This document shows, piece by piece, positions 4,712-16,675 of a stretch of 45,162 nt of DNA (the first letter of the stretch is position 1; every line of letters starts with the position of its first letter). The notes under the pieces were generated by a model, which was not told the origin of the DNA, searched no databases, and saw nothing but the letters and a program-made list of their open reading frames with translations. Origin of the DNA: Ferrovibrio sp. (GTDB lineage: Bacteria; Pseudomonadota; Alphaproteobacteria; Ferrovibrionales; Ferrovibrionaceae); NCBI RefSeq assembly GCF_029255545.1, contig NZ_JANLJJ010000055.1, positions 1 to 45,162 on the forward strand, written 5' to 3'. Both the position numbers and the translations under genes were made by a program.

Positions 4712-5713
4712 TCAGTCGTCGCCGCCAACCCGGGCCTGGTTCTCCTTGACCCACAGGCTATGGTGCTCTTTGGCCCAGTTCATGTCGACCTGGCCGCTGC
4801 CCATGGCGTCGAAGGCGCCTTCCATGCCAACCGAGCCGATGTAGATATGGGCCAGGATAATGGCGACCATCACGATACCGGCAATGGCATGCACCAGTTG
4901 GGCCATCTGCATGCCGGCGATATCGGTGACGTAGAACGGGAACATCAGCATATAGCCGCTCACCGCCAGCGCGGCCGCGCCCAGAACCACCGCCCAGAAG
5001 ATGATCTTCTGGCCACCGTTGAACTTGCCGGCGGGCGGGTGCACGCCCTTCTGCAGCAGCCCGCCGCCCTGGCGGAACCACTCCATATCGATGGCGTTGA
5101 AGATGTTGTGGCGGATCCACAACACGGCCATCAGCAGCACACCCAGCACGAAGGGGAAGCTGAGGAAGTTATGCGCCAGCTTGCCAAACGAGGTCAGCCC
5201 GGTGAACGCCTCCGGCCCGATCGCCGGCAACAGCAGGGTCCGGCCAAAGGACAGGTTTAGACCGCTCAGGCCCAGGATGATGAAACAGATCGCCGTCAGC
5301 CAGTGGGCGAACCGTTCAATGCCAGAAAAACGCTCGATGGTACGGCCCGAAGGGCCGGAGTCGATCTTGATGCGGCCACGGATCGCCATGAATGCCGCCA
5401 GCGCCACCACCGTAATGACCAGCAGCCAGCCACCGGCCGACTTGACCGGACCTTCCAGCGTCTGGCGCCATTCCCGGCCCTGCGGCTGAATCAGGACGCC
5501 TGACTTGGCATCAGGGATCGAGACGCGACCGGCAACCGGCGCGCCCTTGAGTTGCTGCAGCAATGCGGCTTCGTCGGCCGTGGTCTGCTGCGCCGAGGCC
5601 GGCGCAACCGCGCCGAAGCCCAGCATGAGGCCAAGGGCGAGCGCGGCGCAGGCCATCCGCATGATCCCAGGCCGCATGGTCAGTGGCGTGCGCTTGAATG
5701 CGAAAAGGCGCAT
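4712..5713 (-). CDS. fdhC: Formate dehydrogenase gamma subunit, membrane cytochrome b
   Basis: A 333-residue membrane subunit that anchors FDH and passes electrons through b hemes to quinone. An N-terminal hydrophobic stretch ending in APASAQ looks like a signal or first membrane segment. Four further membrane helices follow (near residues 90, 135, 175 and 275). Candidate heme ligands are in RFAHW, KLAHNF, IRHNIF, VHAIAG and LAHIYIG, as in the FdnI/FdoI family. AAGGAG precedes the ATG by nine bases. It is the last gene of the structural operon, 26 bases after fdhB. The family is usually about 210 residues in enterobacteria; the extra N-terminal domain is common in alphaproteobacterial forms. 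Confidence 0.92.
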   Translation of the reverse strand: MRLFAFKRTPLTMRPGIMRMACAALALGLMLGFGAVAPASAQQTTADEAALLQQLKGAPVAGRVSIPDAKSGVLIQPQGREWRQTLEGPVKSAGGWLLVITVVALAAFMAIRGRIKIDSGPSGRTIERFSGIERFAHWLTAICFIILGLSGLNLSFGRTLLLPAIGPEAFTGLTSFGKLAHNFLSFPFVLGVLLMAVLWIRHNIFNAIDMEWFRQGGGLLQKGVHPPAGKFNGGQKIIFWAVVLGAAALAVSGYMLMFPFYVTDIAGMQMAQLVHAIAGIVMVAIILAHIYIGSVGMEGAFDAMGSGQVDMNWAKEHHSLWVKENQARVGGDD

Positions 5714-5739: not shown

Positions 5740-6336
5740 TCAGGCCGAAGTGCCGGATTTATAAGCCGTCGCCCAGCCCCAGGCGCCGGAACCGTAACCG
5801 CGGCGGGTGACACGCTCCTTGTAGATTTGGGCGATGACGTCGCCATCGCCGGCCAGCAACGCCTTGGTCGAGCACATCTCGGCACAGAGCGGCAGCTTGC
5901 CTTCGGCAAGACGGTTGGCGCCATACTTGATGTATTCTTCCTTGGTGTTATCGGCTTCCGGGCCGCCAGCGCAGAAGGTGCATTTGTCCATCTTGCCGCG
6001 GCTGCCGAAATTGCCGACCTGCGGATACTGCGGCGCGCCGAACGGACAGGCATAGAAGCAATAGCCGCAGCCGATGCACAGGTCCTTGGAATGCAGGACG
6101 ACGCCTTCCTCGGTCTTGTAGAAGCAGTCGACCGGACAGACCGCCATGCAGGGCGCGTCTTCGCAATGCATGCAGGCCATCGAGATCGAGCGCTCGCCCT
6201 TGGCGCCGTCATTCAGCGTGACGACGCGGCGGCGATTGATGCCCCAAGGCACCTCGTGCTCGTTCTTGCACGCGGTGACGCAGGCGTTGCACTCAACGCA
6301 ACGCTCGGAGTCGCAGAGGAATTTCATACGAGCCAT
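5740..6336 (-). CDS. fdhB: Formate dehydrogenase beta subunit, four-cluster ferredoxin
   Basis: A 198-residue iron-sulfur subunit that wires the catalytic subunit to the membrane cytochrome. Four cysteine groups are visible in order: CVECNACVTAC, CMHCEDAPCMAVCP, CIGCGYCFYACP and a final CTFC with a later CAEMC, matching the FDH3/HybA/DmsB ferredoxin family with four [4Fe-4S] clusters. GGGAG lies before the ATG. It has no export signal of its own, so export would be by hitch-hiking with FdhA through Tat (known for the family). It sits between fdhA and fdhC with short gaps (23 and 26 bases). Confidence 0.93.
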   Translation of the reverse strand: MARMKFLCDSERCVECNACVTACKNEHEVPWGINRRRVVTLNDGAKGERSISMACMHCEDAPCMAVCPVDCFYKTEEGVVLHSKDLCIGCGYCFYACPFGAPQYPQVGNFGSRGKMDKCTFCAGGPEADNTKEEYIKYGANRLAEGKLPLCAEMCSTKALLAGDGDVIAQIYKERVTRRGYGSGAWGWATAYKSGTSA

Positions 6337-6359: not shown

Positions 6360-9248
6360 TCAGGCCGCTTCGATGCGGCACAGCGTGGCCTTGTTCTCAT
6401 GCATATGGGTGACCGGGTCGTAGCCGTAGGTCGTCACGCCATTGGCCGCTTCACCCAGCACGATCGGATCGGTACCCGGCGGATAGTTCTTGCGCTGGTC
6501 CACGCCCTGCCAGAAGCCGGAGAAGTGGAACGGCAGGAACACCACGCCCTTGCCGACGCGCGGCGTGACCAGGGCCTTGACCTTGGCCTTGGCATTGGCT
6601 TCCGGACCGTAGACCCAGACATTCTGGCCCTCCTTGATGCCAAGGCGGGCCGCGTCGTCGGGGTTGATCTCGACGAACATGTTCTGCTGCAACTCGGCCA
6701 GCCACTTGTTCGAGCGGGTTTCCTCGCCGCCGCCCTCGTATTCGACGAGGCGGCCCGAGGTCAGGATCATCGGGAAGTCCTTCGAGACGTCCTTGTCCTG
6801 GATGCTCTTGCCCAGATGCGGCAGGCGGTAGTCGCGACGGTCGGCCATAGCCGGATACTTGGCGACCAGATCACGGCGCGCCGTATAGATCGGCTCACGA
6901 TGCACCGGGATTGGATCTGGCAGGCCGAAGGCGTTGGCGCGGGCCTTGGCATTGCCCATCGCCTGCACGCCATGCGCCATGCAGACGCGGATGATGCCGC
7001 AGCTGTAATCGATAGCCCAGCCCACGGCATCCGGGTTGTTGCCACCGATCTTCTCGATCGTGGCACGCTCGGCATCGGTAAGCTCCTTGTCCCAGCCCAT
7101 TTTCTTGAGCAGGCCATAGGTGAACTCGGGGTGACCGTCCTGGATTTCCGAGCCGACCGGGTAGGATCCCTCGGCCAGCAGCGAAACGCCATTGCGCTCG
7201 ACACCGAAGCGGGCGCGGAAGGCACCGCCACCGTCCTTCACCGGCAGGTTGGTGTTATAGAGCACATGGGTGCCGGGATGCTTCATTTCCGGCGTGCCCC
7301 AGCAGGGCCACGGCAAGCCGTAGAATTCACCCTTCAGCGGGCCTTTGGTGGCACGCAGACTGACCACGTCGAAATCGGCCTGGTGCGCCATATGCTCCTT
7401 CAGGCGCTCCGGCGACTGGCCGGAGTAACCGATCGAGACGCTGCCCTTGTTGAGCTCGCGCAGGATGTCCTCGACATTCGGCTCGTCGCCCTCGTCGATC
7501 TTGATGTTCTTGAACAGCTCCTGCTCGAAGCCGAGCTTCTTGGCGAACTTGTGCAGGATCCAATGATCTGGCTTGGACTCGAAGATCGGCTTGACGATCT
7601 GCTCACCCCACTGCAGCGAGCGGTTCGAGGCCGTGCGTGAACCGCGGGTCTCGAGCTGCGTGCAGGCCGGCAGCAGATAGGTGCCGTTCTTGCGATCCGG
7701 CAGGGCTGCGGCGGTGGTCGGATGCGGGTCGACCACGACCATCAGCTCGACCTTCTCCATGCCGGTGCGCATTTCGGGCATGCGCGGCACGGTGTTGCCG
7801 CCATGGCCCCAGAAGAACATCGCCTTCACGTTGTCCTTCTGCTCCAGGTCCTTCTTGTCGACCAGCACGGCGTCGAACCAACGGGTCGACGGGATACCCT
7901 TGGTCTCCATCATCTTCTTCGACTCGAACCGGCTCTGCACCCAGTTGTAGTCGACATCCCAGACCCGACTCCAATGCTTCCAGGCGCCTTCGACCAGGCC
8001 GTAATAGGCCGGCAGGGTCGTGACATCGAGGCCAAGATCGGTGCAGCCCTGCACGTTGCAATGGCCACGGAAGATGTTGGCGCCGCCGCCTTCCACGCCA
8101 ATGTTGCCGAGCGCGAGCTGCAGGATGGACAATGCGCGCACGTTGGCAGTGCCAACGGTGTGCTGGGTCACGCCCATGCACCAGATCAGGGTGCCGGGCC
8201 GGTTCTTGGCCATCAGCTCGGCGACGCGCTTCATCTGCTCGCCGGGCACGCCGGTAACCTTCTCGGTTTCCTCGGGCGTCCACTTCTCGACTTCCTTACG
8301 GATGTCGTCCATGCCGTAGACGCGCTGGCGGATATATTCCTTGTCCTCCCAGCCATTCTGGAAGATGTGCCAGAGCAGCCCCCAGATCACGGGAATATCG
8401 GTGCCCGGGCGGATGCGCATATATTCGGTGGCATGCGCGGCCGTGCGGGTGAAGCGCGGATCAATCACGATCATCGGCGCCTTGTTCTTCTCCTTGCCGC
8501 GCAGCACATGCTGCAGCGACACCGGATGCGCCTCGGCGGGGTTGCCGCCCATGATCACGATGCACTTGGAATTGTGGATATCGTTATACGAATTGGTCAT
8601 TGCGCCGTAGCCCCAGGTATTGGCTACGCCGGCGACCGTGGTCGAATGGCAGATACGCGCCTGGTGGTCGATGTTGTTGGTGCCCCAGAAGGCGGCAAAT
8701 TTGCGGAACAGATAGCCGCCCTCGTTGGAGAACTTGGCCGACCCGAGCCAGTAGACGGATTCAGGGCCGGACTTCTCGCGAATCTCGAGCAGCTTGTTGC
8801 CGATTTCCTCGACCGCCTGGTCCCAGCTGATGCGGGTCCATTTGCCATCGACGATTTTCATCGGATATTTCAGGCGGCGGTCGCCGTGGGTCAGTTCGCG
8901 GATCGAGGCGCCCTTGGCGCAATGGGTGCCAAGGTTGATCGGGCTGTCCCAGGTCGGCTCCTGGCCGACCCAGACGCCGTTCTCGACTTCGGCAGTGACG
9001 GTGCAGCCAACCGAGCAGTGGGTGCAGATATTCTTCTTGACGATATTGGCGCCGGCCGAGGGCGCGGCCCTGGCCGGCCTGACCATGGCCGGGCTGAGCG
9101 CCGAAACGGCGGCAAGACCACCGGCCGCCAGACCCGAAGCCTTCAGGAAACCACGGCGATCCACGGTCTGCAGCGCGGCGCCGGCGAGGATGCCGGACAG
9201 CTTGCCCTTCGAGGGGGCGCCGGCGGTGGAGCTCTTCTTGATCAACAT
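6360..9248 (-). CDS. fdhA: Formate dehydrogenase alpha subunit, Mo/W-bis-MGD catalytic subunit (Cys form)
   Basis: A 962-residue catalytic subunit oxidising formate to CO2. A twin-arginine signal (RRGFLKASG at 31-39, then a hydrophobic stretch and ARAAPSAG) directs folded export. A [4Fe-4S] site is formed by Cys75, 78, 82 and 110 (CTHCSVGC and THCAKG). The metal ligand is Cys200 in ARICHSTTVAG, where other FDHs may carry selenocysteine; there is no in-frame TGA. The C-terminal molydopterin-dinucleotide domain is complete (molybdopterin-binding end near GYDPVTHMHENKATLCRIE). GGAGACG precedes the ATG. It follows the Tat-signal gene fdhX by 35 bases. Confidence 0.95.
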   Translation of the reverse strand: MLIKKSSTAGAPSKGKLSGILAGAALQTVDRRGFLKASGLAAGGLAAVSALSPAMVRPARAAPSAGANIVKKNICTHCSVGCTVTAEVENGVWVGQEPTWDSPINLGTHCAKGASIRELTHGDRRLKYPMKIVDGKWTRISWDQAVEEIGNKLLEIREKSGPESVYWLGSAKFSNEGGYLFRKFAAFWGTNNIDHQARICHSTTVAGVANTWGYGAMTNSYNDIHNSKCIVIMGGNPAEAHPVSLQHVLRGKEKNKAPMIVIDPRFTRTAAHATEYMRIRPGTDIPVIWGLLWHIFQNGWEDKEYIRQRVYGMDDIRKEVEKWTPEETEKVTGVPGEQMKRVAELMAKNRPGTLIWCMGVTQHTVGTANVRALSILQLALGNIGVEGGGANIFRGHCNVQGCTDLGLDVTTLPAYYGLVEGAWKHWSRVWDVDYNWVQSRFESKKMMETKGIPSTRWFDAVLVDKKDLEQKDNVKAMFFWGHGGNTVPRMPEMRTGMEKVELMVVVDPHPTTAAALPDRKNGTYLLPACTQLETRGSRTASNRSLQWGEQIVKPIFESKPDHWILHKFAKKLGFEQELFKNIKIDEGDEPNVEDILRELNKGSVSIGYSGQSPERLKEHMAHQADFDVVSLRATKGPLKGEFYGLPWPCWGTPEMKHPGTHVLYNTNLPVKDGGGAFRARFGVERNGVSLLAEGSYPVGSEIQDGHPEFTYGLLKKMGWDKELTDAERATIEKIGGNNPDAVGWAIDYSCGIIRVCMAHGVQAMGNAKARANAFGLPDPIPVHREPIYTARRDLVAKYPAMADRRDYRLPHLGKSIQDKDVSKDFPMILTSGRLVEYEGGGEETRSNKWLAELQQNMFVEINPDDAARLGIKEGQNVWVYGPEANAKAKVKALVTPRVGKGVVFLPFHFSGFWQGVDQRKNYPPGTDPIVLGEAANGVTTYGYDPVTHMHENKATLCRIEAA

Positions 9249-9283: not shown

Positions 9284-9487
9284 TCAGAGCCGGTTGGTCT
9301 CGTAGTAGCGCTTCACGTGGTCGGTTTCCTTGTAGCGCTGCTTCTTGCGGGTCTCGGCATTCTCGGCGGCCTCGGCCTGGCCCGGAGCGCCCGCAGCGGT
9401 CGCCACGGCGGCAGCTGCGGCGCCGACACCGGCCGTGCGCAGGAAATTGCGGCGATCCATCTGGTCTTTCTTGTCGGTGGCGGTCAT
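9284..9487 (-). CDS. Small Tat-signal protein of the FDH operon (FdhX-like)
   Basis: A 67-residue protein starting at the ATG at 9487, nine bases after GGAGG. The same frame stays open further upstream, but that part is antisense to the torD-like gene. Residues 12-16 (RRNFL) followed by an Ala/Gly-rich hydrophobic stretch make a twin-arginine signal. The rest (NAETRKKQRYKETDHVKRYYETNRL) is short, charged and conserved in style among small proteins encoded directly before fdhA in proteobacteria. It may help targeting or assembly of the FDH complex; the exact role is not known to me. Confidence 0.85.
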   Translation of the reverse strand: MTATDKKDQMDRRNFLRTAGVGAAAAAVATAAGAPGQAEAAENAETRKKQRYKETDHVKRYYETNRL

Positions 9488-9518: not shown

Positions 9519-10328
9519 TCATGCGGCGAGGGCGAATGCCTGGGTTTCGATAGACATGAACAGCCGGCCGATGGTGCCGAGCGGCTGATAGAGCCTAGCG
9601 CTAGGCGCCTGCTCCAGATCGGTGAAGAAGCGTTCGCCCCAAGGCGCGATATGCTGGCGGAACAGGCGTTCCTGGGTGGCAAGCTCGGCCGGGCCGCGGC
9701 CTTCGCCGCCACTGATCAGCAGCGACATCAGTTCGCACAGCGCGCCCATGTGATCTTCGGGCTCGTAAATGCCATCGGCGCGGGCGAAGCCAAGCTTTTC
9801 CATATCGCCGCGCAGTTTCGCCAGCGGCCGTTCATAGAGAAAACCGGTGCGGTAGAACGAGGCATAAGGCACCAGCTCGCCACGCGGCAGACCAACAAAT
9901 AATGCATCGTATTCGTCCTGCGCCCGCTCCAGCGAGGTGGCGCGGGCCAGTTCGGCCAGCCTGGCCAGGGCCTGTCCCACCGGCGTTTCGTCGCCCTTCA
10001 GCTGGCCAAGCGCCGTCAGCAGCGCCGTGTCGGGTCGCCGCGCCAGGCTGCGGCCCAGCAATGCATAGGTCTGGCTCCGCCACTGGTCTTCCTCTGGGAT
10101 AATCGGCAGGGCATCGGCGGCTTGCGTATCGGGATAAAGATCGGGCCGGAGGTCATGGCGCGTGATCTGGCCGCCACAGGCTTTCTCGATGGCCAGCACA
10201 TACTCGCCCGGCACACGGCCCGCCTTGTTCAGCCAATGCCAGACATTGGCCTGCTTGACACCAAGCAGCCGGGCCAGTTGCGTCTGGCCGCCGACGATGG
10301 CGATGGCTTTCATCAGTGCTTCGGTCAC
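9519..10328 (-). CDS. TorD-family chaperone with N-terminal YdaS/Cro-type DNA-binding domain
   Basis: A 269-residue two-domain protein with a GTG start at 10328 and AGAGG upstream. Residues 1-66 match the YdaS/Cro helix-turn-helix: GGQTQLARLLGVKQANVWHWLN is the HTH, followed by GRVPGEYVLAIEKACGGQITRHDLRPDLYP. Residues 80-265 are an all-helical TorD/DmsD chaperone, with YASFYRTGFLYERPLAKLR and the EPEDHMGALCELM signature. TorD proteins bind Tat signals of Mo enzymes and hold them until the cofactor is in. Here it is first in the FDH operon. The fused DNA-binding domain suggests it also regulates the operon, sensing free FdhA; this is inference. Confidence 0.9.
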   Translation of the reverse strand: MTEALMKAIAIVGGQTQLARLLGVKQANVWHWLNKAGRVPGEYVLAIEKACGGQITRHDLRPDLYPDTQAADALPIIPEEDQWRSQTYALLGRSLARRPDTALLTALGQLKGDETPVGQALARLAELARATSLERAQDEYDALFVGLPRGELVPYASFYRTGFLYERPLAKLRGDMEKLGFARADGIYEPEDHMGALCELMSLLISGGEGRGPAELATQERLFRQHIAPWGERFFTDLEQAPSARLYQPLGTIGRLFMSIETQAFALAA

Positions 10329-10346
10329 GTTTACCTCTTCCCGTGC

Positions 10347-10394
10347 GTTAACCTACAAATTCTTTTGTGGGGTAACAATAAAAATCGGCGTAAC
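10347..10394 (-). promoter_or_regulatory. Predicted promoter of the torD-fdhXABC operon overlapped by GTTAAC-like repeats
   Basis: On the minus strand a TTGTTA (-35, 10378-10373) and a TAGGTT (-10, 10355-10350) are separated by exactly 17 bases, just upstream of the GTG start. Three copies of a GTTAAC-like motif lie here: GTTAAC at 10347-10352 (on the -10), GGTAAC at 10371-10376 (on the -35) and CGTAAC at 10389-10394. A fourth perfect GTTAAC is at 10492-10497, near the divergent antiporter gene. The placement suits a repressor, plausibly the HTH-TorD fusion itself. Pattern seen; function inferred. Confidence 0.45.
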
Positions 10395-10564
10395 ACACTG
10401 ATTTTACTCCAGTTTTGTTGCGACTGCGAAATTTTGATAGCGCCTCTCAATCGCATCTCCTGTCGCAGCTTTAAATTGCTTAATCAAATGTGTTAACGGT
10501 GAGCCAAGTCCCTGTAACCGCGACATTCCCTTGGCCGCGCACAGCCCCGAAGAGAAATTCTGCG

Positions 10565-11803
10565 ATGCCGCATGACACACCGCTGATCACAATGCTCGCT
10601 CTGGCCTTTGTGATCGCGTTTGCCTTCGGCATGATTGCCCAGAAATCCCGCCTCTCCCCTCTGGTCGGCTATCTGCTGGCGGGGATCGTCGTTGGTCCGC
10701 ATACGCCCGGCTATGTCGCCGATTCGGTGCTGGCTCAGCAGCTGGCTGAAATCGGTGTGATCCTTCTGATGTTCGGCGTCGGGCTGCATTTCACCCCGGC
10801 CGATCTCATGCGGGTGCGCTGGATCGCCATTCCCGGCGCATTGGCGCAGATCGCCGTCGCGACCCTGCTGGGTTTTGGCCTCGCCCAGTTTTTCGGCTGG
10901 GGCCTGGGCGGCGGGCTGGTATTTGGCCTCGCCCTTTCGGTTGCCAGCACCGTGGTGTTGCTGCGCGCACTGGAAAGCCGCGGCGAGGTCGACAGCGATC
11001 TGGGCAGAATCGCGGTCGGCTGGCTGCTAGTGGAAGACATCTTCATGATCGCCGCCCTGCTGCTGCTGCCGCCGCTGGCCGACATCCTGGGCGGACGTGG
11101 CGAAGGCAGCGAAAACATCCTTGGCTCGCTGCTGGTCACGGCCATCAAGGTGGCTGCCTTCGCCGCCCTGGCCCTGATCGTCGGCAAACGCGTCATTCCC
11201 TGGCTGCTGCAGCATGTCGCCGAAACCGGCTCGCGCGAGTTGTTCACGCTGGCTGTGCTGGCCTCTGCGCTGGGGATCGCATTTGGCGCGGCCCTGCTGT
11301 TCGACGTGTCCTTTGCGCTGGGGGCCTTCTTCGCCGGCGTGATCATGAACGAGTCCGATCTCAGCCATGACGCGGCCCAGCGTTCGCTGCCGTTTCAGGA
11401 TGCCTTCGCGGTGATGTTCTTCGTGTCGGTCGGAATGCTGTTCGATCCGCGCATCGTCTTCGAGGCGCCGCTGGCCCTGTTCGGCGTGCTGCTGATCATC
11501 ATTGTCGGCAAATCGCTGGCAGCCTTTGCCATCGTCCTCATTTTCCGCCACCCGCTGTCAACGGCCCTGACGGTATCCGTGAGTCTCGCCCAGATTGGCG
11601 AATTCTCGTTCATCCTGGCCGGACTGGGTGTTTCACTCGGCCTGCTGCCGGAGGAAGGCCGCGACCTGCTGCTGGCCGGGGCGTTGCTGTCAATCGCGGT
11701 CAATCCGCTGCTGTTCCGCGCCCTCGAACCGGCCGAAGCCTGGCTGCGCGCCCGGCCTGACCTGCTGCGCCGCCTGGGCGCCCGGGACGACGCCGAATTC
11801 TAG
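10565..11803 (+). CDS. CPA2-family cation:proton antiporter, membrane domain only (YbaL-like)
   Basis: About 412 residues with roughly 12 membrane helices, starting at the ATG at 10565; an upstream GTG at 10490 would add 25 non-hydrophobic residues. The helices resemble KefB/YbaL transporters (PLVGYLLAGIVVGPHTPG, SVASTVVLLRALE, ALGAFFAGVIMNESD, SLAQIGEFSFILAGLG). Such proteins exchange K+ or Na+ for H+ across the inner membrane. Many relatives carry a C-terminal TrkA-N/RCK domain; here the protein stops soon after the last helix, so it lacks that nucleotide-sensing part. The stop shares a CTAG palindrome with the stop of the convergent DUF3306 gene. Divergent from the FDH operon. Confidence 0.88.
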   Translation: MPHDTPLITMLALAFVIAFAFGMIAQKSRLSPLVGYLLAGIVVGPHTPGYVADSVLAQQLAEIGVILLMFGVGLHFTPADLMRVRWIAIPGALAQIAVATLLGFGLAQFFGWGLGGGLVFGLALSVASTVVLLRALESRGEVDSDLGRIAVGWLLVEDIFMIAALLLLPPLADILGGRGEGSENILGSLLVTAIKVAAFAALALIVGKRVIPWLLQHVAETGSRELFTLAVLASALGIAFGAALLFDVSFALGAFFAGVIMNESDLSHDAAQRSLPFQDAFAVMFFVSVGMLFDPRIVFEAPLALFGVLLIIIVGKSLAAFAIVLIFRHPLSTALTVSVSLAQIGEFSFILAGLGVSLGLLPEEGRDLLLAGALLSIAVNPLLFRALEPAEAWLRARPDLLRRLGARDDAEF

Positions 11804-12390
11804 TCCGGCAAAGCGCCGCCATGGCGGCGGCGTGGCGGCATGTAAACCGGCGCTGGCTGCTCGGCCGGCTTTTCATCCATTGTTTGAACAACCGGATCAA
11901 TCTCGGGCCCCTGTTCCGAGATATCCGCCAAAACCTGCGGCACTGGCTCCGGCTGTTGCGATGCCGCTGCCGGCTGGGTCTCAGGCTCCGCTGGCTTCAA
12001 GCTGCCATCGAAGACTGTCCGCACGTATTTGGCAATGTCGTCGCCGGGCAGCAATTCACCATAGCCCGGCGCGGTGAAGTCCCAGTTGTATTCGACCAGC
12101 GGCTGGTAGTTCACCACGCTCGGCTCAACCAGCCAGAGCTTGCGCAAGGCCGCGGCGCGCAGGGCCGGCGGCACGCCCTTTTTGAGAAACAGGCCGAAGT
12201 CGCTGCTCGCGGTCAGGCTTTCTATCGGCGGCAGGGTGGCTGGGTCGATTTCAACATTATCTTCCCCGACCGGTGATTCGTCTGGTGCTTCGACCGGCTT
12301 TTCTTCGCGGGCTTCGGCCTTGCGACGCGACCAGCGGGCCAGGAAACCGCCCTGCCCGTCGTCTTCCGGCCTGTCACTGTCACGCGTCAT
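11800..12390 (-). CDS. DUF3306 protein of the FDH maturation operon
   Basis: A 196-residue soluble protein. The N-terminal FLARWSRRKAEAREE and the central LPPIESLTASSDFGLFLKKGVPPALRAAALRKLW segments are the hallmarks of DUF3306; after residue 140 the tail is low-complexity, rich in Pro, Glu and Gln. The family is found almost only beside formate dehydrogenase genes; its role is unknown and it may act in assembly. It is the last gene of the operon, nine bases after the DUF3305 gene. Its stop overlaps that of the convergent antiporter gene. Confidence 0.85.
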   Translation of the reverse strand: MTRDSDRPEDDGQGGFLARWSRRKAEAREEKPVEAPDESPVGEDNVEIDPATLPPIESLTASSDFGLFLKKGVPPALRAAALRKLWLVEPSVVNYQPLVEYNWDFTAPGYGELLPGDDIAKYVRTVFDGSLKPAEPETQPAAASQQPEPVPQVLADISEQGPEIDPVVQTMDEKPAEQPAPVYMPPRRRHGGALPD

Positions 12391-12399
12391 GCGATGCCC

Positions 12400-12945
12400 C
12401 TATTCATCCTCGGGCACCTGGCGCAGCGGATCGGATTCATACAACCGCGTGCGCCGCGCCAGCGCTTCAGGATCGGCCCGGTCGCGCTTGCGCCTGTAAT
12501 GCTCCTTCGTGGGGGGATGGCGCTGCACGTAATCGGTCACCCAGGCCAGGATTGCCTCGGGCATCGGCACGAAATCGACGATGTCATCGCCGGTATCGTT
12601 ATGCGCATGTGCCTCGCCAGGATCGACCGATGCACCATAAAGCTCGATGCCGGGCTCGGATGCGCTGTTGCGCAGGAAAACCCACACCGACGGCTGCGCG
12701 CTTTCGATATTGTAGGCGTATGTCTCGCTTTCGTGGCGATACAGCACCAGCTCCGCAGCACCGGCATAGAATTGCGTCCAGCCCTCGCCTTCGGCCAGCC
12801 TGGTCCAGGGCGGCGAGTCCGGCACGCCGGGCAGCACCTGTACGGGGTGCCAGCTGTAATCCACCCAGGGATTGTCCAGCTTGCGGCGCTCCAGGATCAC
12901 GCCGACCATGCGTGTTTCGGTTTCCGGTGGCCTGATCTCGCTCAT
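12400..12945 (-). CDS. DUF3305 protein of the FDH maturation operon
   Basis: A 181-residue protein with the DUF3305 pattern: a start near MVGVILERRKLDNPWVDYSWHP, then FYAGAAELVLYRHESETYAYNIES and WVFLRN. It is predicted to be cytoplasmic, with no membrane segment or cysteine cluster. It pairs with DUF3306 in FDH clusters, which suggests the two proteins work together; the biochemical role is not known. The C-terminal tail (RKRDRADPEALARRTRLYESDPLRQVPEDE) is highly charged. The start lies three bases after the stop of the DUF6352 gene, so coupling is likely. Confidence 0.83.
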   Translation of the reverse strand: MSEIRPPETETRMVGVILERRKLDNPWVDYSWHPVQVLPGVPDSPPWTRLAEGEGWTQFYAGAAELVLYRHESETYAYNIESAQPSVWVFLRNSASEPGIELYGASVDPGEAHAHNDTGDDIVDFVPMPEAILAWVTDYVQRHPPTKEHYRRKRDRADPEALARRTRLYESDPLRQVPEDE

Positions 12946-12948
12946 GCT

Positions 12949-13974
12949 TCAGCTTCCCGAATTGAGCGGCAAGTTTATCACAAGATTCTGCGGTTTCATC
13001 CGCACGCGGCCTTGCGCATCCATCGCCAAGCCCAGATAGACCGGCCGCCCGGCGATGCGCGGCAACATCAGCGACGGATCGCGGAATTCCAGGCGGAACA
13101 GCGCCAGGATATGCCGCAGACGCTCCTCCTCCACGCTCTGGCCCTCGTACAGCGTATTCATGATGCCGCTGGCCGTGGCATCCAGGCCGATATGCCAGAC
13201 CCAGCGTTCGTCGCGGATGGTCTGCACCGGCTGCACCTGCACGGCGGCGCCAGTCAGGCGCTCGACCCAGAGCTCGACCACACGGGCGAAGGCATCCTGC
13301 CCCGGCCGGGTGAAACCGAAATCCAGCACGAAGTCATGCCGGTCGCTGCGGCCCCAGTATTGCGCGGCATTCTCCTTGGTCAGGATATCCATGTCGACGC
13401 TGCGCAAGGCCGTGCCGGCCTGCGCCACCAGCGCGCCAAGCGAGCCAAAGCCGCCGCCGGCCGCCAGCATCTCGACCGTTTCCTCGTCAGCCAGCAGGAT
13501 GCGCCCCTCCTGGGTCGTCGCCTTCTGCACGCGGAAAAACAGTTCAGCGGCGCGCAAGCGGAAGGCGTCAGGGCTGCCATCCAGCAGGTCGCGCAGGATC
13601 GCGGCCACGAGGTGATCGATGAACAGGGCCGGCACCGCCGGTGCGCCCGCCCGGAACAGGCTGATATAAGCGGCTTCGATGCTGCCGCTGGCGGCCAGGT
13701 GGTCGCGGAAGCGCAGGAAGATTTTGTAATTCTCACGCGCATCGGCATCGGCCAGCGCGTCGATTTCGCCGCCGGGCACCGCCCAAAACGGATCCTCCAG
13801 CAACCTTGCATGCAGGCGGCGTTCGGCCAGGCAGGCTTCCTCCGGCGGCAGCATTTCCGGTCGGCTTAAATAAGCGCGGATGAAGTCTATGCTCGCGACC
13901 AGATGGCCATCATCCGCGCGGTCCAACAGGTCATAGCCGCTGCTGATCCAGAAGGCGGCCTGCGGTTCAGTCAT
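12949..13974 (-). CDS. DUF6352 family protein of the FDH maturation operon
   Basis: A 341-residue soluble protein beginning MTEPQAAFWISSGYDLLDR. I recognise it as the DUF6352 type seen in FDH clusters of alphaproteobacteria. It looks largely helical in its first two thirds (EIDALADADARENYKIFLRFRDHL, LFIDHLVAAILRDLLDG), then has a beta-rich C-terminus (HDFVLDFGFTRPGQDAFARVVE, GRPVYLGLAMDAQGRVRMKPQNLVINLPLN). No catalytic motif is obvious. It overlaps the preceding DUF6505 gene by eight bases, so it belongs to the same transcript as fdhD and mobA. Function unknown. Confidence 0.75.
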   Translation of the reverse strand: MTEPQAAFWISSGYDLLDRADDGHLVASIDFIRAYLSRPEMLPPEEACLAERRLHARLLEDPFWAVPGGEIDALADADARENYKIFLRFRDHLAASGSIEAAYISLFRAGAPAVPALFIDHLVAAILRDLLDGSPDAFRLRAAELFFRVQKATTQEGRILLADEETVEMLAAGGGFGSLGALVAQAGTALRSVDMDILTKENAAQYWGRSDRHDFVLDFGFTRPGQDAFARVVELWVERLTGAAVQVQPVQTIRDERWVWHIGLDATASGIMNTLYEGQSVEEERLRHILALFRLEFRDPSLMLPRIAGRPVYLGLAMDAQGRVRMKPQNLVINLPLNSGS

Positions 13975-14443
13975 CGGGACTGATCTCCCAGATCTTGGTA
14001 TGCAGCTTCTCTCCGGGCGGCGGCACGACGCGGAACTGCTCGCGGATCGCCTCGCCCTCGATGAAACGGCTTAAGGAAAGCAGGGTGTTGATCGGATGCT
14101 CGCACAACGCGGCAGCATAATCGACCTCCTCGCGCGCGGCTGCCGTCGCGCTGGCCATATCGGGGGCGCCATAATGCCCGGCCAGATGCTGCGCCAGGGC
14201 TGCCACGGCTGCCTCATACTCATCCGCTTCGGCGGTTGCGACCGTCACCAGCGTGGACCAGCCGAAACTGCCCAGCCCGAGGAAGCCATTGGCGAAGGCC
14301 TGACGCTGCTGCCGGCTCAAAGATTCCGGGTTGGCATCGGCGAAGGCAAAAGTACCCGGCACCGCCCATTCGCCGGGTGTGGCGGCCTGCGGGAAAACCC
14401 GCGTATCAGACTCATCGAAACGGATACAGCGCAGCAGCTTCAT
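13967..14443 (-). CDS. DUF6505 family protein of the FDH maturation operon
   Basis: A 158-residue protein starting MKLLRCIRFDESDTRVFPQ. The length, the FANGFLGLGSFGWSTLVTVA segment and the end EKLHTKIWEIS fit DUF6505. It is probably soluble and compact. Its start overlaps the stop of the ligase-like gene upstream (ATGA) and its end overlaps the DUF6352 start by eight bases, showing tight coupling. Nothing in the sequence shows an enzymatic activity. The name rests on recognition of the family and the operon context. Confidence 0.7.
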   Translation of the reverse strand: MKLLRCIRFDESDTRVFPQAATPGEWAVPGTFAFADANPESLSRQQRQAFANGFLGLGSFGWSTLVTVATAEADEYEAAVAALAQHLAGHYGAPDMASATAAAREEVDYAAALCEHPINTLLSLSRFIEGEAIREQFRVVPPPGEKLHTKIWEISPDD

Positions 14444-15165
14444 GATACCTGCCCCACCGGCTCGGGCAGTACCCAGCTGCGATGCCGCAGGGCATCGCGC
14501 AGGCCACGCCAGGCTTTCACCGTGCCATCCTCGAACCAGGCATCGCCGTTCGGCTCGATCCTGAGGCCCTTGTCCTGCAGATCGTGCAGCACGGCGCGGC
14601 GCACCGGTTCAAAGCCGTCTTCCTGCCAGCGATCGAGCCAGTGCAGCAGATGCCGCGCGAAAGCCTCGATCAGCTGCGGCACGGTCACCTCGCCACAGCC
14701 TTCTTCATAGAGATTGGTGTATTCCAGTTCGACGCCAGGCGTGTCGTCGTCGCGGTCGCCGCTCATCTGCACGGTGATGCCAAGCACCAGCCAGTCAGGC
14801 ACATCGGCCATGCCGTCTTTCTCGACCAGTGGACCATGGACAACCTGCACGCCGCCGACACAGGCCTCATTCACCAGCAGGCGGTCGGGCCAGCCGATGC
14901 TGGCCGGCGTTTCGGCGGGCGCCAGCGCCGCCAGCCCGTCATGCAGACCAAGCAGGCCGACATAGGCCAGCGTCAGCGCCGGCTGGATCGGGTCGAGCGG
15001 CCGCAGCACCAGGGCGGCCTCGCAGCGATCCGGCCGGTCGACCATGAGCATCAGGCCATCCTCGGCGCCATCGCGCGCTGCCTGGCAAGCGGTTTCGAAA
15101 GCATCGGCGACGCAGAGTCGCAGCGTGTAGCCCGGCGGCATGGCCGGCCAGTCAGCGGGATTCAT
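14440..15165 (-). CDS. Biotin/lipoate protein ligase-like protein lacking catalytic residues
   Basis: A 241-residue protein related to the BPL/LplA/LipB catalytic fold. The position of the GRGRxGR loop of true ligases is occupied by DGLMLMVDRPDRCEAALVL, and the KWPND motif with its catalytic lysine reads GWPDRLLVNEACVGGVQV. So the fold seems kept but the adenylation residues do not. It sits between mobA (ATGA overlap) and the DUF6505 gene (ATGA overlap) in the FDH maturation operon. A scaffold or cofactor-handling role is more likely than ligation; this is inference. The family name is likely, activity unlikely. Confidence 0.75.
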   Translation of the reverse strand: MNPADWPAMPPGYTLRLCVADAFETACQAARDGAEDGLMLMVDRPDRCEAALVLRPLDPIQPALTLAYVGLLGLHDGLAALAPAETPASIGWPDRLLVNEACVGGVQVVHGPLVEKDGMADVPDWLVLGITVQMSGDRDDDTPGVELEYTNLYEEGCGEVTVPQLIEAFARHLLHWLDRWQEDGFEPVRRAVLHDLQDKGLRIEPNGDAWFEDGTVKAWRGLRDALRHRSWVLPEPVGQVS

Positions 15166-15785
15166 GCCGCGTCTCCCAGTTGCGCCAGCAGGCGTTCGGC
15201 CGCCGCGATATCCTCCGGCGTGTTGGCATTGAAAAACGGATCGACCGGATCGGCGGCGAAATGCACCTGCGCCAGTTTGTGCCGCGCGGTCCAGCGATCC
15301 ACCTTGCGGATATCCTCGTCCACCATCGCATGGCGCAGGTCGTCATGCAGGCGCAATGGCCACAGACCGACCACGGGATAAGCCTGGCCGGCCGAAACCG
15401 CGCAGGCCAGGTCGGCGCCGGCCTCGGTGCGCGCCGCTACCATACGCGCCACCAGATCGCGCGGTAAAAACGGCCCATCCCCCGGCACGGTAACGATATC
15501 GGTGACATCCGGACGGTTCTGCTTCACCCAGGCCATGCCAGCCAGCACGCCGGCCAGCGGCCCGGCATAATCGGGGATGGCATCGCCCGCCACCGGCAGG
15601 CCCCAGGCCGCGAACCGCGCCGGATTGCCATTGGCATTGAGGATGATGCCATCCACCTGCGGCCGCAGGCGGTCGAGGATGCGATCCAGGATCGGCCGGC
15701 CGCCCAGCATCTGAAGGCTCTTGTCGCCGCCACCCATGCGGCGGGCCAGGCCACCCGCCAGCACCACGCCGAGGATTGTCGTCAT
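15162..15785 (-). CDS. mobA: Molybdenum cofactor guanylyltransferase MobA
   Basis: A 207-residue nucleotidyltransferase that joins GMP from GTP to molybdopterin, making the MGD cofactor needed by FdhA. Key motifs are present: VVLAGGLARRMGGGDKS (nucleotide binding) at the start, AGPLAGVLAGMAW, PGDGPFLP (metal site region), YPVVGLWPL, and a C-terminal FFNANTPEDI. The length is normal. Its start directly abuts the fdhD stop and its end overlaps the ligase-like gene by four bases. With mobB at the window's left edge, both MGD genes are in the district, though in separate operons. Confidence 0.93.
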   Translation of the reverse strand: MTTILGVVLAGGLARRMGGGDKSLQMLGGRPILDRILDRLRPQVDGIILNANGNPARFAAWGLPVAGDAIPDYAGPLAGVLAGMAWVKQNRPDVTDIVTVPGDGPFLPRDLVARMVAARTEAGADLACAVSAGQAYPVVGLWPLRLHDDLRHAMVDEDIRKVDRWTARHKLAQVHFAADPVDPFFNANTPEDIAAAERLLAQLGDAA

Positions 15786-16675
15786 TACGCCGCCTCGTCG
15801 CCGCGGCTGCCCTTGCGCTGCAGCGTGGCGTCCTCCTCGCCGACAATGGCCGGATCGGCATCGAAGCGCAGGCGCTCGGCGCCGGAAAGCGCCACGAAGC
15901 GCTTGCCCTTGGCGCGGCCGATCAGGGTCATGCCGATCTGGCGGGCGAGCTGCACGCCCCAGGCGGTGAAGCCCGAGCGGCTGATCAGGATCGGAATGCC
16001 CATCTGCGCCGTCTTGATCACCATTTCCGAGGTGAGTCGCCCGGTGGTGTACATGCTCTTGCCCTGCGGCGAGATGCCGTTCACCCGCATATAGCCGGCG
16101 ATCTTGTCAATGGCGTTGTGGCGGCCGACATCCTCCATGTAGATCAGCGGCCGGTCATCCTCGCACAGCACGCAGCCATGGATGGCCCCGGCCTCCAGAT
16201 ACAAGGATGGCGCCAGATTGATCTTCTTCGACAGCGCATAAATCCACGAGGTGTGCAGCATGGCCGTAGGGTCGAGCCGCACATTTTCCACCGCATCCAT
16301 CATGTTGCCGAACACCGTACCCTGGGCGCAGCCCGAGGTCTGGGTCTTTTTCTTCAGCCGCTCTTCATAGTCGGTCTGGCGTGCGGTGCGCACCACGATG
16401 GTCTCGATCTCGGGGTCGAAATCGATGCCGGTCACCTCGTCGTCGGGCAGCAACATGCGCTGGTTGACCAGATAGCCCAGGGCCAGATAGTCGGGATAGT
16501 CGCCGATCGTCATCATGGTGACGATTTCCTGCCCGTTCAGGAACAGGGTGAGCGGGCGCTCGACCGGCACCTTGGTCTCGACGGGTTTGCCATCATGGTC
16601 GATGCCCTGCACCGTTTCGGTGAGGGCGGGATCGAGCGGGTCCGGGCGGACGAGGAATTCGGGCGTGCTGGTCAT
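15785..16675 (-). CDS. fdhD: Formate dehydrogenase accessory sulfurtransferase FdhD
   Basis: A 296-residue protein that passes sulfur from a cysteine desulfurase to the Mo cofactor, which FDH needs for activity. TAGGAGCC lies just before the ATG. Family motifs are clear: GAIHGCVLCEDD, YMEDVGRHNAIDKIAGY, YTTGRLTSEMVIKTAQMGIPILISRSG. The loop that carries the CxxC of the E. coli enzyme reads TSGCAQGTVF here, with a single cysteine. A separate CVLC occurs about 60 residues later. This variant may be common outside enterobacteria. First gene of the maturation run, 21 bases after the CBS-domain gene. Confidence 0.93.
   Translation of the reverse strand: MTSTPEFLVRPDPLDPALTETVQGIDHDGKPVETKVPVERPLTLFLNGQEIVTMMTIGDYPDYLALGYLVNQRMLLPDDEVTGIDFDPEIETIVVRTARQTDYEERLKKKTQTSGCAQGTVFGNMMDAVENVRLDPTAMLHTSWIYALSKKINLAPSLYLEAGAIHGCVLCEDDRPLIYMEDVGRHNAIDKIAGYMRVNGISPQGKSMYTTGRLTSEMVIKTAQMGIPILISRSGFTAWGVQLARQIGMTLIGRAKGKRFVALSGAERLRFDADPAIVGEEDATLQRKGSRGDEAA

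Follow-up and report, generated by a model that had tools for sequence, protein, structure and literature searches.

The activity of the repressors HspR and HrcA is tied to the availability of the chaperones DnaK and GroE, respectively, and BirA and PutA combine a catalytic or assembly function with autorepression in one polypeptide. HspR and HrcA are separate repressors that act with general folding chaperones, whereas the protein described here, HTH-TorD, is one polypeptide with one presumed client; BirA and PutA sense metabolites or redox state, whereas the signal that we propose for HTH-TorD is an unfinished enzyme. Little is understood of how cells keep the production of large Mo/W respiratory enzymes in step with the slow processes of inserting the cofactor and exporting the enzyme by Tat. 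In E. coli, torCAD reportedly depends on Moco by a mechanism that is not established, and its expression is subject to feedback from apo-TorC, relayed by TorS (PMC10845959). In both torCAD and, as we infer, HTH-TorD, an operon responds to how far a component of its own respiratory enzyme has matured, but torCAD uses a two-component sensor whereas HTH-TorD would be a one-component fusion of a chaperone and a helix-turn-helix (HTH) domain.

HTH-TorD shares with the TorD/DmsD/NarJ maturation proteins (PF02613) a complete domain, the EPEDH motif, the fold and synteny with a Tat-exported Mo/W enzyme, and with the YdaS and Xfaso 1 Cro repressors (PF15943) the HTH fold. YdaS is the Cro equivalent of its own prophage (PMC9986795); the HTH of HTH-TorD belongs to a chromosomal metabolic operon instead of a phage switch, and is fused to a chaperone. 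An HTH or DNA-binding domain in the TorD family is not mentioned in a paper on the evolution of the NarJ subfamily or in a review of molybdoenzyme maturation (PMC4464133, PMC10609526), and the open-access literature searched, a corpus of 5.4 million papers, holds no description of a fusion of TorD with a YdaS, helix-turn-helix or DNA-binding domain. The fusion of chaperone and probable repressor is real, conserved and overlooked, and comparative sequence analysis gives good support to a predicted operator in its own promoter.

A Cro-like domain fused to a TorD-family chaperone

The window, by which we mean the whole 45,162-nucleotide stretch of Ferrovibrio sp. DNA analysed, carries the fusion as a single unbroken frame with AGAGG preceding its GTG start.

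9519–10328, minus strand: HTH-TorD fusion gene, 269 aa, GTG start (reading frame; Pfam; conservation in the genus)
10128–10313, minus strand: YdaS/Cro-type HTH domain, residues 6–67 (PF15943; Xfaso 1 Cro in sequence and fold)
10221–10253, minus strand: recognition helix, residues 26–36, QANVWHWLNKA (DSSP on the model; helix class predicts operator class)
9522–10094, minus strand: TorD-family chaperone domain, residues 79–269, with EPEDHMG at 189–195 (PF02613; YcdY/DmsD/NarJ folds)

The first-pass annotation had read one 269-residue frame here, with an intact HTH and a complete TorD fold containing EPEDHMG, and had suggested a profile search of each half; Pfam, solved structures and an AlphaFold2 model confirm the architecture, and the outcome that would have spoken against it, residues 1–66 matching no DNA-binding profile, did not arise. 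Both profile matches are far above cutoff, YdaS_toxin (PF15943) at residues 6–67 (E 2.3e-24; 85.4 bits against a cutoff of 30) and Nitrate_red_del (PF02613; NarJ/TorD/DmsD) at residues 113–235 (E 3e-30; 105.5 bits against 22.2). By sequence, the nearest solved structures are Xfaso 1 Cro for the HTH half and DmsD for the TorD half. The model, built from 58 fused proteins, shows two domains (mean pLDDT 89.5, pTM 0.81). In Foldseek comparisons its HTH superimposes on Xfaso 1 Cro (3bd1) with 0.9 Å rmsd over about 60 residues, and its TorD half, which has the all-helical REMP fold, matches YcdY, DmsD and NarJ. Within EPEDH (residues 189–193), E191, D192 and H193 are invariant across the 58 fused proteins. 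Since the NCBIfam equivalog cutoffs for TorD (NF003442; 43.6 against 132 bits) and DmsD (NF008632; 33.5 against 162) were missed, HTH-TorD is a member of the family, and not TorD or DmsD proper; it is the sole TorD homologue detected in its own genome (E ≤ 0.001). By profile and modelled fold, the YdaS/Cro-type HTH counts as a genuine DNA-binding domain. The TorD half has probably retained chaperone function. A chance open reading frame or a frameshift was ruled out because the frame is kept in 8 of 10 Ferrovibrio genomes and in dozens of others. A role of the YdaS half as a toxin was set aside, since the YdaS family is equivalent to Cro (PMC9986795).

HTH-TorD is the first gene of an FDH3-type formate dehydrogenase operon in the window; its position at the head of the operon, also claimed by the earlier annotation, agrees with the order of formate_TAT, FdhA, FdhB and FdhC downstream on the same strand.

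9284–9487, minus strand: formate dehydrogenase region TAT target protein (formate_TAT, TIGR02811; NCBIfam profile)
6360–9248, minus strand: FdhA, Mo/W-bisPGD catalytic subunit with the twin-arginine motif DRRGFLK, the presumed client (Pfam and sequence)
5740–6336, minus strand: FdhB, 4Fe-4S subunit (Pfam)
4712–5713, minus strand: FdhC, cytochrome b subunit (TIGR01583; profile)
11800–16675, minus strand: accessory genes DUF3306, DUF3305, DUF6352, DUF6505, BirA/LplA-like, MobA and FdhD, upstream of the fusion

In all 61 fused loci with sufficient downstream sequence, the fusion gene is followed by FdhA-FdhB-FdhC, and in other genomes its immediate upstream neighbours are usually DUF3306, DUF3305, DUF6352, DUF6505 and the BirA-like gene. 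In the record of a Bradyrhizobium plasmid, the name FDH3 is given to the beta subunit of this enzyme, and the fusion appears as 'molecular chaperone TorD family protein'. A divergent YbaL/Kef-type K+ efflux gene (10490–11803, plus strand) lies between DUF3306 and the fusion gene in the window; found in only one mapped fused locus, it looks like a local insertion into a conserved cluster.

Distribution and origin of the fusion

Matches were present in 42 of the 289 genomes of a class-wide draw, about nine of them with the HTH, and about 70 fused loci were found among the best 80 in a scan of 84,980 species genomes. The survey of alphaproteobacterial fdh operons that the first-pass annotation had called for finds the fusion to be widespread in Hyphomicrobiales, which hold most fused loci (Bradyrhizobium, Nitrobacter, Bosea, Pseudolabrys, Mesorhizobium and Chelatococcus), and present outside them in Ferrovibrio (8 of 10 genomes), Elioraea and an Azospirillum-like lineage represented by a MAG. 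Further fused genomes were found with an approximate bait, whose C-terminal half did not match L060; the sequences analysed are those of the matches themselves. The fusion is thus common in rhizobia and their relatives, hidden under the NCBI name 'TorD family protein', as annotation pipelines name the TorD half only.

On the tree of TorD domains, the label YdaS, HTH_3 or none changes nine times, at least four of these changes being forced by well supported branches, which indicates that the fusion has been gained or lost repeatedly. In L009 and L081, TorD is fused at the same place and in a related locus to a different HTH family (HTH_3/HTH_31; PF01381/PF13560), suggesting a second fusion event, so that the design may have arisen twice. 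One genome (G493; loci L149 and L176) carries two TorD homologues, the fused one with the operator described below and the unfused one without it.

Predicted operators in fused promoters

The first-pass annotation had placed the target of the HTH in the DNA upstream of the gene (10329–10500), and the operator predicted here falls within that region on strong comparative evidence.

10355–10368, minus strand: predicted operator ACAAAAGAATTTGT (ACAAA-N4-TTTGT), with its centre some 33 nt ahead of the start codon (dyad search, genus comparison)
10373–10378, minus strand: tentative -35, TTGTTA (read from the sequence and the genus alignment)
10350–10355, minus strand: weak candidate -10, TAGGTT, with which the operator would fall in the spacer (from sequence and alignment)

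A de novo count of inverted 5-mers recovered ACAAA-N4-TTTGT in 6 of 6 dereplicated Ferrovibrio-type upstreams, against a best dyad in one or two upstreams across 200 shuffle sets. The site in the window belongs to the sole exact 15-mer ACAAA-N4-TTTGTA in its own 4.1-Mb genome. Among the ten genomes of the genus, the two without the fusion are also without the site, and two divergent genomes that carry the fusion (G291 and G293) have, in place of the exact site, a copy with one mismatch at the equivalent position. The dyad presumably resembles the operators of phage 434, which we take as a lead only. An alternative candidate promoter, TTCGCA-18-TAAAAT, was placed upstream of the operator by a promoter scan (10430–10401).

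Recurring dyads were first noticed in the upstream DNA of fused genes. In Hyphomicrobiales, CATAG-N7-CTATG, ATAGC-N5-GCTAT and ATAGG-N5-CCTAT lead the list, with top counts of 11, 10 and 8 among 37 dereplicated upstreams and a shuffle maximum of 3, while the de novo dyad search in 28 unfused TorD operon upstreams returned nothing. When as many as two mismatches are allowed, 60 of 68 fused loci carry CATAG-N7-CTATG, against 1 of 28 unfused loci, a difference that amounts to only 4–9 independent contrasts on the tree and is underpowered as an association alone; 2 of 20 unfused loci of the same order have it. Every QPS fusion (see below) among the loci added later carries the predicted site, as does a plasmid-borne fusion, and an unfused Sinorhizobium (S. 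meliloti) gene is without it. One locus, L091, has neither an ATAG nor an ATAA dyad.

The recognition helix and the operator change together

Where the recognition helix of the fused protein begins with QPS or QPT, 83 of 85 promoters carry an exact ATAG-N7-CTAT and none an exact ATAA-N7-TTAT. Proteins with QPA show the reverse (ATAA-N7-TTAT in 8 of 8, ATAG-N7-CTAT in none), a rule that is partly post hoc, as the GATAA class was defined after exceptions had appeared and was restated as ATAA when L153 (CATAA) matched at the inner base only. The third class, Q-x-x-[VI]-W, has a four-residue insertion and includes the protein of the window; seven of its eight members have the exact 14-bp ACAAA-N4-TTTGT, and the eighth has it with one mismatch. 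Two of the eight (L003 and L035) come from outside Ferrovibrio. Helix class and operator class each change three times on the tree, jointly in every independent pair, although three changes are too few for formal significance in a sign test. This coupling is the strongest evidence, comparative in kind, that the HTH binds its own promoter, and we consider it almost certain that the HTH reads a short dyad there. A specific dyad operator in the controlled promoter, the mark of a YdaS/Cro-type regulator, is thus found by comparative genomics. The three helix-operator pairings also offer ready-made specificity swaps for a Cro-like domain.

The position of the dyad suggests what binding would do. 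Across 60 Hyphomicrobiales sites, the eight bases of ATAG...CTAT are nearly invariant; a TTGAC -35 overlaps the dyad by 2 bases in 16 of them and lies 6–9 nt downstream in 15, where shuffling predicts TTGAC at a fixed phase in about 2% per site, and 28 of the 60 have no TTGAC at hand. Since the dyad overlaps or abuts a TTGAC -35 in about half of these sites, binding should repress through promoter occlusion, and HTH-TorD is likely to act as a repressor of its own operon.

A model for sensing enzyme maturation

Our preferred model, which we hold to be more probable than not, gives HTH-TorD two functions, that of a Tat-proofreading chaperone and that of a repressor of its own FDH3-type operon, and has apo-FdhA release it. 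The Cro-like domain almost certainly reads a dyad in the promoter of its operon, ACAAA-N4-TTTGT in the window and ATAG/ATAA-N7-CTAT/TTAT in Hyphomicrobiales; the bound protein would block the TTGAC -35 of Hyphomicrobiales promoters and thereby repress. The TorD half would be a working chaperone for apo-FdhA, engaged through the twin-arginine signal; synteny and family point to FdhA as the client, and the TorD half is complete, with no second homologue of this kind detected in the genome, which argues that it serves FdhA. The free dimer would repress, the chaperone loaded with apo-FdhA would leave the operator and the operon would fire, until assembly and export gave back free chaperone and firing stopped. 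As the client is bulky and would sit near the HTH, its binding could plausibly weaken DNA binding. Control of DNA binding by the client, in either direction, seems somewhat more probable than not, and that the loaded chaperone leaves the operator is a tentative choice of sign, for which we would put the chances a little short of even. For the broader reading, in which a Tat-proofreading chaperone is a transcription factor that reads FdhA maturation, apo-FdhA moving the Cro-like dimer off or onto the operator and tupBC of Ferrovibrio maybe being a target too, the chances appear evenly balanced. A chaperone that doubles as the repressor of its operon would be the simplest possible sensor of the maturation state of an enzyme. 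In many soil and water bacteria, an assembly helper probably sets the amount of formate dehydrogenase made. With the operator now predicted, the proposal is testable with one protein and a 60-bp DNA.

All of the DNA-level evidence would also be covered, with the fewest assumptions and no effect of a client, by simple autorepression, in which the HTH holds the level of operon and chaperone while the TorD half stays silent or another ligand (Moco, a guanine nucleotide or Mo/W) gives the signal. A separate small repressor would suffice for that purpose, however, and an in-frame fusion kept over many genera suggests that the linkage is needed; we regard simple autorepression as unlikely. The sign could instead be the opposite, with the client-loaded chaperone repressing and apo-FdhA acting as a co-repressor when Mo/W cofactor or export capacity is short. 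This arrangement would be economical physiologically, and the feedback of apo-TorC on torCAD via TorS runs that way (PMC10845959), but a client of about 105 kDa, placed beside an HTH dimer that is itself small, would be expected to obstruct DNA binding sooner than to aid it, and we think the opposite sign rather improbable.

Two further explanations question whether the HTH is bound at the dyads at all. The dyads might be sites of another regulator, such as a LysR-type activator or a Mo/W regulator: T-N11-A boxes of the LysR type fit ATAG-N7-CTAT, among the further exact CATAG sites of some genomes is one between a LysR gene and fdsG, and a dyad upstream of tupB in Ferrovibrio has the same ACAAA-N4-TTTGT core. 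Yet the dyads are present with the fused HTH and absent without it, even inside one order, the base that is read switches with the recognition helix of the fused protein itself, three times in parallel, which would be hard to explain for a site that served a different regulator, and the cluster of the annotated Bradyrhizobium locus contains no LysR gene (the wider synteny map covers window genes only), so that this explanation is very unlikely. Least credible, to the point of being nearly dismissible, is a YdaS domain that binds no DNA, whether it serves for dimerisation or some other accessory purpose or is what a decayed prophage has left behind. The toxin in its Pfam name and its neglect by annotation pipelines might be taken to favour this view, but fold and residues are Cro-like, and the recognition helix falls into conserved classes that are coupled to the operator sequence.

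Other copies of the operators and neighbouring elements

A regulon search found 0–2 exact operator copies per genome. Extra exact sites in G035, G301, G297, G289, G294 and G299 pointed consistently to just one further target, tupB in Ferrovibrio, and exact sites upstream of fdsG were found in only 2 of the 14 genomes that have this gene. In two Bradyrhizobium genomes (L124, L125 and L119:3626), CATAGGCTTTGCCTATG precedes fdsG, which belongs to the soluble NAD formate dehydrogenase, and in one case it is seen to lie between fdsG and a LysR gene; it could be a target of HTH-TorD or a LysR box.

Upstream of HTH-TorD, the genus shares another conserved block (10401–10455, minus strand), which reads TGCGAnTGAGAG...TTTCGCA...GCA-CAAA in the alignment, with a TGAGAGTCGCTCTCA-like dyad first, and is perhaps the site of a regulator, Fur-like in kind.

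In Ferrovibrio, a long dyad, TTTTCGCWACAAA-N4-TTTGTWGCGAAAA or variants of it, precedes tupBC-like tungstate transporter genes (L138–L145), about 70 bases upstream of tupB; in the genome of the window it lies in G000:C116 near 5824. In several species the core of this dyad is identical to the fdh operator, three genomes of the genus having a second exact ACAAA-N4-TTTGT upstream of tupB, and the core is degraded in G292, which is without the fusion. The dyad is possibly a second target of HTH-TorD or the site of a Mo/W regulator; if the former is true, it would couple metal uptake to enzyme assembly in Ferrovibrio.
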